A DNA stretch of 64,000 nt. It comes from Streptomyces sp. V3I8. GTDB lineage: Bacteria; Actinomycetota; Actinomycetes; Streptomycetales; Streptomycetaceae. Location: positions 4,340,001-4,404,000 of the forward strand of contig NZ_JAUSZL010000002.1 in the NCBI RefSeq assembly GCF_030817535.1. Reading direction: 5' to 3'. This document shows positions 17,463 to 17,604 of the stretch, one piece after another (within the stretch, counting starts at the first letter, position 1; each line of letters opens with the position of its first letter). The notes under the pieces are model-generated. The model saw only the letters and a list, made by a program, of their open reading frames with translations. It had not been told where the DNA came from and searched no databases. The position numbers and the translations under genes were made by a program.

Positions 17463-17604
17463 CCTACTCCCTACGCCGGCATTACCCGGTAACAGGTTCG
17501 GCGGTCGACGCAGCGTTTTCCGTCCGGCGATGTTCCACGTGAAACATCGCGGATGCGGAGGTCAGCGCCCTCTCAGCCCGGTGCTCCGAGCTCCCGCGTG
17601 TGCA
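17463..17604 (-). promoter_or_regulatory. TPP riboswitch (thi box) of thiC containing a parS-like hairpin
   Basis: Read on the minus strand, the leader contains the conserved CTGAGA (17576-17571), then GAACCTG, GGGTAATGCCGGCGTAGGGA and the ribosome site, the hallmark of the THI element. TPP binding should hide the ribosome site and lower thiC translation. The variable P3 region between CTGAGA and GAACCTG is occupied by a 24-nt hairpin that is also a one-mismatch parS site. Boundaries are approximate because the P1 stem was paired by eye. Confidence 0.92.
17531..17546. other. parS: parS site 4 (one mismatch), inside the TPP riboswitch
   Basis: TGTTCCACGTGAAACA differs from consensus at one position. 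It is centred in a 24-bp near-perfect palindrome (17527-17550). In the RNA the single mismatch becomes a U-G pair, so the hairpin stays intact. Confidence 0.75.

Follow-up and report, generated by a model that had tools for sequence, protein, structure and literature searches.

Can one set of bases be maintained both as a centromere site in DNA and as part of an RNA that senses a metabolite? The question is raised by the thiC leader in the window, that is, the whole stretch of 64,000 nucleotides analysed here, where a near-palindrome with a parS-like core lies at the tip of the P3a arm of a TPP riboswitch. If the answer is yes, such a double use extends over about half of a large genus, and maps of parS sites can coincide with riboswitch models; the system would also allow selection at the DNA level and selection at the RNA level to be separated. 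A literature search of mostly open-access papers, with the S. coelicolor parS papers outside it, returned none naming parS, thiC and Streptomyces together, and no report of such an overlap was found among titles and abstracts, again mostly open-access, on parS with riboswitch, terminator or hairpin. Our analysis makes it probable that two constraints act on one stretch, a candidate ParB site in DNA and a self-contained hairpin in RNA.

The parS-like site and the thiC riboswitch

The elements of the locus, with strands as read in the window, are the following:

17451..17607, minus strand: TPP riboswitch (THI element) of thiC, Rfam RF00059 (cmscan, 41.8 bits)
17577..17590, minus strand: P3 hairpin CUCGG-AGCA-CCGGG (sequence reading and Rfam alignment)
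17571..17576, minus strand: CUGAGA of the aptamer core, the 5' border of P3a
17500..17570, minus strand: P3a arm, 71 nt, the segment bounded by CTGAGA and GAACCTG
17527..17550, no strand assigned: 24-bp near-palindrome GCGATGTTCCACGTGAAACATCGC (written on the plus strand), P3a tip (sequence reading)
17532..17545, no strand assigned: parS-like 14-mer GTTCCACGTGAAAC (written on the plus strand), core of the near-palindrome, 1 mismatch
17493..17499, minus strand: GAACCUG of the aptamer core, the 3' border of P3a
15584..17458, minus strand: thiC (Pfam PF01964, 626.3 bits)

The leader has the conserved core motifs CUGAGA, GAACCUG and GUAAUGCCGGCGUAGGGA and is positioned ahead of a thiamine gene. 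Its match to RF00059 spans the full model (1-105 of 105, E 4.1e-7, in a search of 301 bases at a relaxed threshold). The Rfam gathering score of 54.3 is not reached by these 41.8 bits, and a search of the window at that cut-off gives no TPP match. The P3a of the leader contains a 53-nt insertion relative to the model, and the length of the arm is probably one reason for the low score. Two further TPP matches occur in the genome, one above the cut-off (63.5 bits) and one below it (50.3 bits), and both fall outside the parS-holding stretch. Divergent from thiC is a gene for a YibE/F-like protein (window 17646-19094, plus strand).

The initial annotation had assigned the parS-like sequence to P3. 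The arm is in fact P3a, since P3 is the hairpin CUCGG-AGCA-CCGGG immediately 5' of CUGAGA, and P3a is the optional stem 3' of it. In the accessible portion of Barrick and Breaker 2007 (PMC2258182), P3a is present in 552 and absent from 355 TPP riboswitch sequences, and is predicted to stack on P2. The other elements of that description are borne out by the sequence: the near-palindrome has a one-mismatch parS at its core, GTTCCACGTGAAAC against the parS GTTTCACGTGAAAC, within the limit of at most 1 mismatch used here for parS. The mismatch likewise becomes a U-G pair in RNA, as had been proposed. On the RNA (minus) strand the 14-mer reads GUUUCACGUGGAAC, the C.A of the DNA palindrome turning into U.G, and the near-palindrome as a whole forms the hairpin GCGAUGUUUC-ACGU-GGAACAUCGC, whose five inner pairs have probabilities of 0.98-1.0 in the folded leader.

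Membership in the origin-proximal parS cluster

In the window 14 parS-like sites have at most 3 mismatches, where 1.0 would be expected, and the genome holds 21 with 0-1 mismatch, of which 18 are perfect and 3 have one mismatch. All 21 lie within 207 kb (C2:4292264-4499360), and a reversed control pattern of parS, sought over the whole genome at 0-1 mismatch, gave 0 sites. A search for oriC by DnaA boxes returned no clear cluster, and dnaA was taken as the origin marker in its place; it lies at 4411354, approximately 54 kb from the thiC site, and parB lies at 4404306, approximately 47 kb away. The thiC site is thus found near the origin, among other parS and close to the chromosomal parB, and is a member of the origin-proximal parS cluster; a chance match to parS was ruled out by the excess in the window, the clustering in the genome and the counts across the genus described below. 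For comparison, the accessible portions of PMC4852455, PMC8743542 and PMC12511625 give 16 or 17 parS for S. venezuelae, 24 for S. coelicolor, and a mean of 22.8 (range 11-65) over 20 genomes.

Two other elements of the window may be recorded here. A one-mismatch parS of the G11 class (see below) at 24562-24575 has like flanks and a similar place in 4 of 6 relatives, and Rfam places the Streptomyces small RNA Scr3920 at 23451-23575 on the minus strand (138.5 bits).

Distribution in the genus and the family

ThiC was found in 391 of the 392 genomes of the genus, which we take to be Streptomyces because every named record listed as having this arm is a Streptomyces (80 shown of at least 120 matching stretches; the pattern spells the Streptomyces arm and detects carriers of that kind only). 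Carriers with a name include S. noursei and S. lydicus. Leaders were taken from three sources: 1) 103 of 150 listed genomes. 2) 75 of 80 genomes sampled from the other 241, five genomes with partial ThiC being left out. 3) The loci of a parS-in-arm pattern, which matched 50 of the 392 genomes, 46 of them by eye in true thiC arms and 4 not. Ten duplicate genomes were removed before carriers were counted. Five of 210 loci could not be parsed, namely two chance pattern matches, an extra ThiC copy without CTGAGA in genome G025, and two loci cut at stretch ends, both carriers by eye. The 195 parsed leaders represent 194 genomes, G025 contributing two.

These leaders fall into two groups, 128 with a parS of 0-1 mismatch in P3a and 67 with 5-9 mismatches; none has 2-4. 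Of the leaders from the listed genomes 90 of 101 are carriers, or 92 of 103 when the two cut loci are counted. The sample from the remaining genomes has 20 carriers in 76 leaders, and the 18 pattern-only loci are all carriers by design. Weighting over the first two strata gives an estimate of about half of the genus. The non-carriers have unrelated stems or almost no arm, down to 27 nt, and those with arms of 27-32 nt retain the aptamer core, so the distal arm is not needed. On a tree built from short flanks the carrier label changes 4 times, whereas 200 shuffles average 55, and the trait is therefore largely inherited.

In the family, no carrier was seen among 15 parsed leaders of other genera (26 genomes with ThiC; 11 of 28 loci unparsed). 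Looser patterns matched 14 of 93 family genomes of other genera, none by eye in a thiC-type arm, and 1 of 16 genomes in a sample of the order, again not in a thiC arm; these patterns require exact CTGAGA and CACGTG and would miss the A8 and G9 types described below. P3a does not, then, always spell parS, as one alignment suggested with the initial annotation might have found: 67 of 195 leaders in the genus and 15 of 15 in other genera of the family differ. A parS in P3a is a lineage trait and not a rule.

Non-carriers do not in general have a substitute parS beside thiC, 15 of 16 loci inspected over 4.7-4.9 kb round the gene being free of one. Beyond these 16, a perfect parS lies approximately 0.5 kb upstream of the riboswitch in another non-carrier, G344, and in the family sample 2 of 17 loci have a parS 1.3-1.4 kb upstream. 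Two arms (L308 and L295) contain shifted or partly doubled parS copies, which might form other hairpins.

Variation in the parS letters

Within carriers the parS letters change little. For 45 arms of 104 nt, parsimony gives 1.1 changes per parS column and 3.8 per column elsewhere in the arm interior; for 40 arms of 71 nt the values are 1.2 and 4.5. The parS columns thus change at approximately 0.3 times the rate of the rest. Free variation of the parS-like sequence among relatives, named at the outset as an outcome that would overturn the idea of a shared sequence, is thus not seen in carriers. The base of the arm, which is outside the interior set and is not parS, is as well conserved as parS, and this counts against a double constraint.

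The variants are also few in kind. Among the 128 carriers there are 69 of the G11 type (to which the window site belongs), 30 A8, 18 perfect, 10 G9 and one C4, the mirror of G11; the 110 one-mismatch arms occupy 3 of 21 possible classes. Positions 8, 9 and 11 vary singly, and doubles are found in 0 of 128 against 21.4 expected if the positions were independent, relatedness being ignored. The other parS sites provide a standard for this spectrum. Six origin regions of 200 kb (1.2 Mb) hold 111 of them, 93 perfect and 18 with one mismatch, and all 18 one-mismatch sites outside the thiC arm fall in the same three classes, 10 of them being G11, in a six-genome count that includes orthologous sites several times. 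The mismatch spectrum of the thiC arms is accordingly the one that a tolerance set by ParB would produce, and ParB would be expected to bind there. The 40 of 128 carriers of A8 or G9 type count against the double constraint; each of these types occurs on one strand only, for which hairpin energies give no explanation. As carriers belong mostly to one lineage, the counts are not independent.

Pairing and compensation in the arm

The arms occur in two forms, a short one with a single self-folding parS copy, which is that of the window leader, and a long one with a second copy added. In 80 long arms the second copy differs from parS by 1-7 mismatches, and the predicted consensus fold pairs it with the first. 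Pair 36-62, which joins the parS mismatch position to copy 2, was read in 57 distinct arms of 104 nt and is GC in 22, AU in 20, GU in 13 and another combination in 2. Changes on both sides affect 38 cells of these arms, compared with 1.4 in shuffles, and nearly all fall at two pairs. Of the cells 98.5% are paired, a value that drops to 28-50% when the partner is slid; in the number of pair types the arms do not exceed shuffles (reached by 102 of 500). The pairs next to parS also vary together in 45 distinct arms of 71 nt, pair 24-41 being AU in 33, GC in 11 and other in 1, and pair 25-40 UA in 39, CG in 5 and UG in 1. Here three helices were counted, two with changes on both sides, and there are 29 such cells against 8.0 in shuffles, with 98.9% of cells paired; one 71-nt arm with a shifted parS was left out of this set (45 of 46) and kept in the parsimony and the consensus fold. 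On these alignments the predicted stem outside parS, and the parS mismatch position itself, change with compensation, the structures counted being derived from the same sequences and the shuffles ignoring relatedness.

The orientation of the mismatch is also asymmetric. The penalty to the hairpin is 0.5 kcal/mol for the G11 type as oriented in the RNA and 4.5 kcal/mol for its mirror. L123, the only mirror case among the 128, has a long arm whose second copy is the parS, the first being decayed.

Two results on folding count against a double constraint. The whole thiC leader has no folding advantage over shuffles (z -0.69), and palindromes self-pair, so that part of the stem comes free. The flanking stem is moreover no proof of a role in the aptamer, because other parS sites also sit in extended palindromes.

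Two constraints on one stretch, and the alternatives

The observations on the arm are the conservation, the mismatch spectrum, the compensatory changes and the position in the parS cluster. We propose that the aptamer is tolerant at P3a and that a parS palindrome, being self-folding, could establish itself there. In DNA, the parS at the P3a tip would be a ParB nucleation site; in RNA, the palindrome would fold on itself and cap P3a, and the aptamer would therefore be little disturbed. ParB binding would allow the 14-mer no more than one tolerated mismatch, and selection on the transcript would keep the arm a closed stem. In relatives with a long arm, one copy would be kept as parS and the other, usually degenerate, would remain paired in the RNA. 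The riboswitch presumably functions with the parS-bearing arm. The original suggestion that the same bases serve ParB and the aptamer scaffold is partly supported: within carriers the parS letters are constrained and the stem outside them changes with compensation, but the aptamer itself has no need of a parS scaffold, because in the 67 and 15 differing leaders the arm is an unrelated stem or nearly absent.

The strongest rival holds that a parS simply landed in the leader, the hairpin being a by-product of its palindrome to which the RNA is indifferent. The dispensability of the distal arm in relatives with 27-32 nt arms and the extended palindromes at other parS sites would fit such an origin, but it does not account for the compensation seen outside parS and between the two copies, the parS mismatch position included, nor for the scarcity of the G11 mirror, which is equivalent in DNA and yet was seen once in 128, in a long arm. 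We consider it unlikely.

ParB might alternatively bind the leader some 75 bp upstream of the start codon and block or damp thiC transcription, the site being kept for that purpose. There are precedents in the accessible portions of two reports: Pseudomonas aeruginosa ParB represses genes adjoining parS3 and parS4 (PMC7022226), and S. venezuelae ParB spreads 2.5-3 kb from parS (PMC12511625). The upstream parS of G344 would also agree with such control, but by our estimate about half of the genus lacks the thiC site, and 15 of 16 non-carrier loci have no other parS. Retention for this purpose is, in our judgement, rather improbable, and the site is presumably kept for segregation and not for thiC control; the coupling does not exclude a stretch under two constraints and is compatible with it.

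That the arm was inherited or kept for an RNA reason, with a merely historical likeness to parS that ParB does not use, is very improbable, for despite the well-kept stem (98.5 and 98.9% of cells paired), the imperfect parS of 110 of 128 carriers and the equally conserved arm base, a stem alone would allow paired changes of the parS letters as in the flanks, of which far fewer are seen, the allowed mismatches are those of other parS sites and two never co-occur, and the site lies inside the parS cluster.

Possible placement of parS in other transcript hairpins

With the stretch read as both ParB site and hairpin, the thiC arm may exemplify a wider placement of parS in transcript hairpins. In the window and the six 200-kb regions, thiC arms included, 30 of 129 parS sites lie in gaps of <300 bp between convergent genes, which amount to 13,361 of 1,264,000 bases, the genes being called by a simple codon-composition script and orthologous sites counted repeatedly. 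Thirteen of the 30 have 8-10 of 10 flanking bases paired. The mean number of flanking bases paired is 6.1 in convergent gaps, 4.2 for the remaining intergenic sites and 3.4 for those inside genes, against 3.0 at 234 control CACGTG sites that are not parS. Convergent gaps free of parS also contain hairpins (longest perfect stem 8.2 on average), and terminator-like stems therefore need no parS. In the window, the parS sites at 31678, 51438 and 51493 form the tips of long inverted repeats between convergent genes and are terminator-like.

It is possible, and we offer this tentatively, that Streptomyces builds part of its centromere from transcript hairpins, such as P3a and terminator-like stems, in which a self-folding palindrome would be harmless or useful, and that thiC output might be coupled to ParB loading.

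Comparison with known systems

Three known systems invite comparison. 1) The TPP riboswitch of RF00059, with which the thiC leader shares the core motifs, the gene context and the optional P3a after UGAGA; it differs in that the tip of P3a is here a parS-like 14-mer in which the letters, and not the pairing alone, are conserved. 2) The parS sites in convergent gaps, where parS likewise tips a long hairpin-forming palindrome with flanks that vary by species, but in a terminator-like context without an aptamer. 3) The Streptomyces parS array, of which the thiC site has the 14-mer, the clustering at the origin and a parB nearby, whereas it lies inside a structured regulatory RNA; the thiC-arm parS is also mostly imperfect (110 of 128 carriers), in contrast to the other sites of the six genomes, of which 93 of 111 are perfect.
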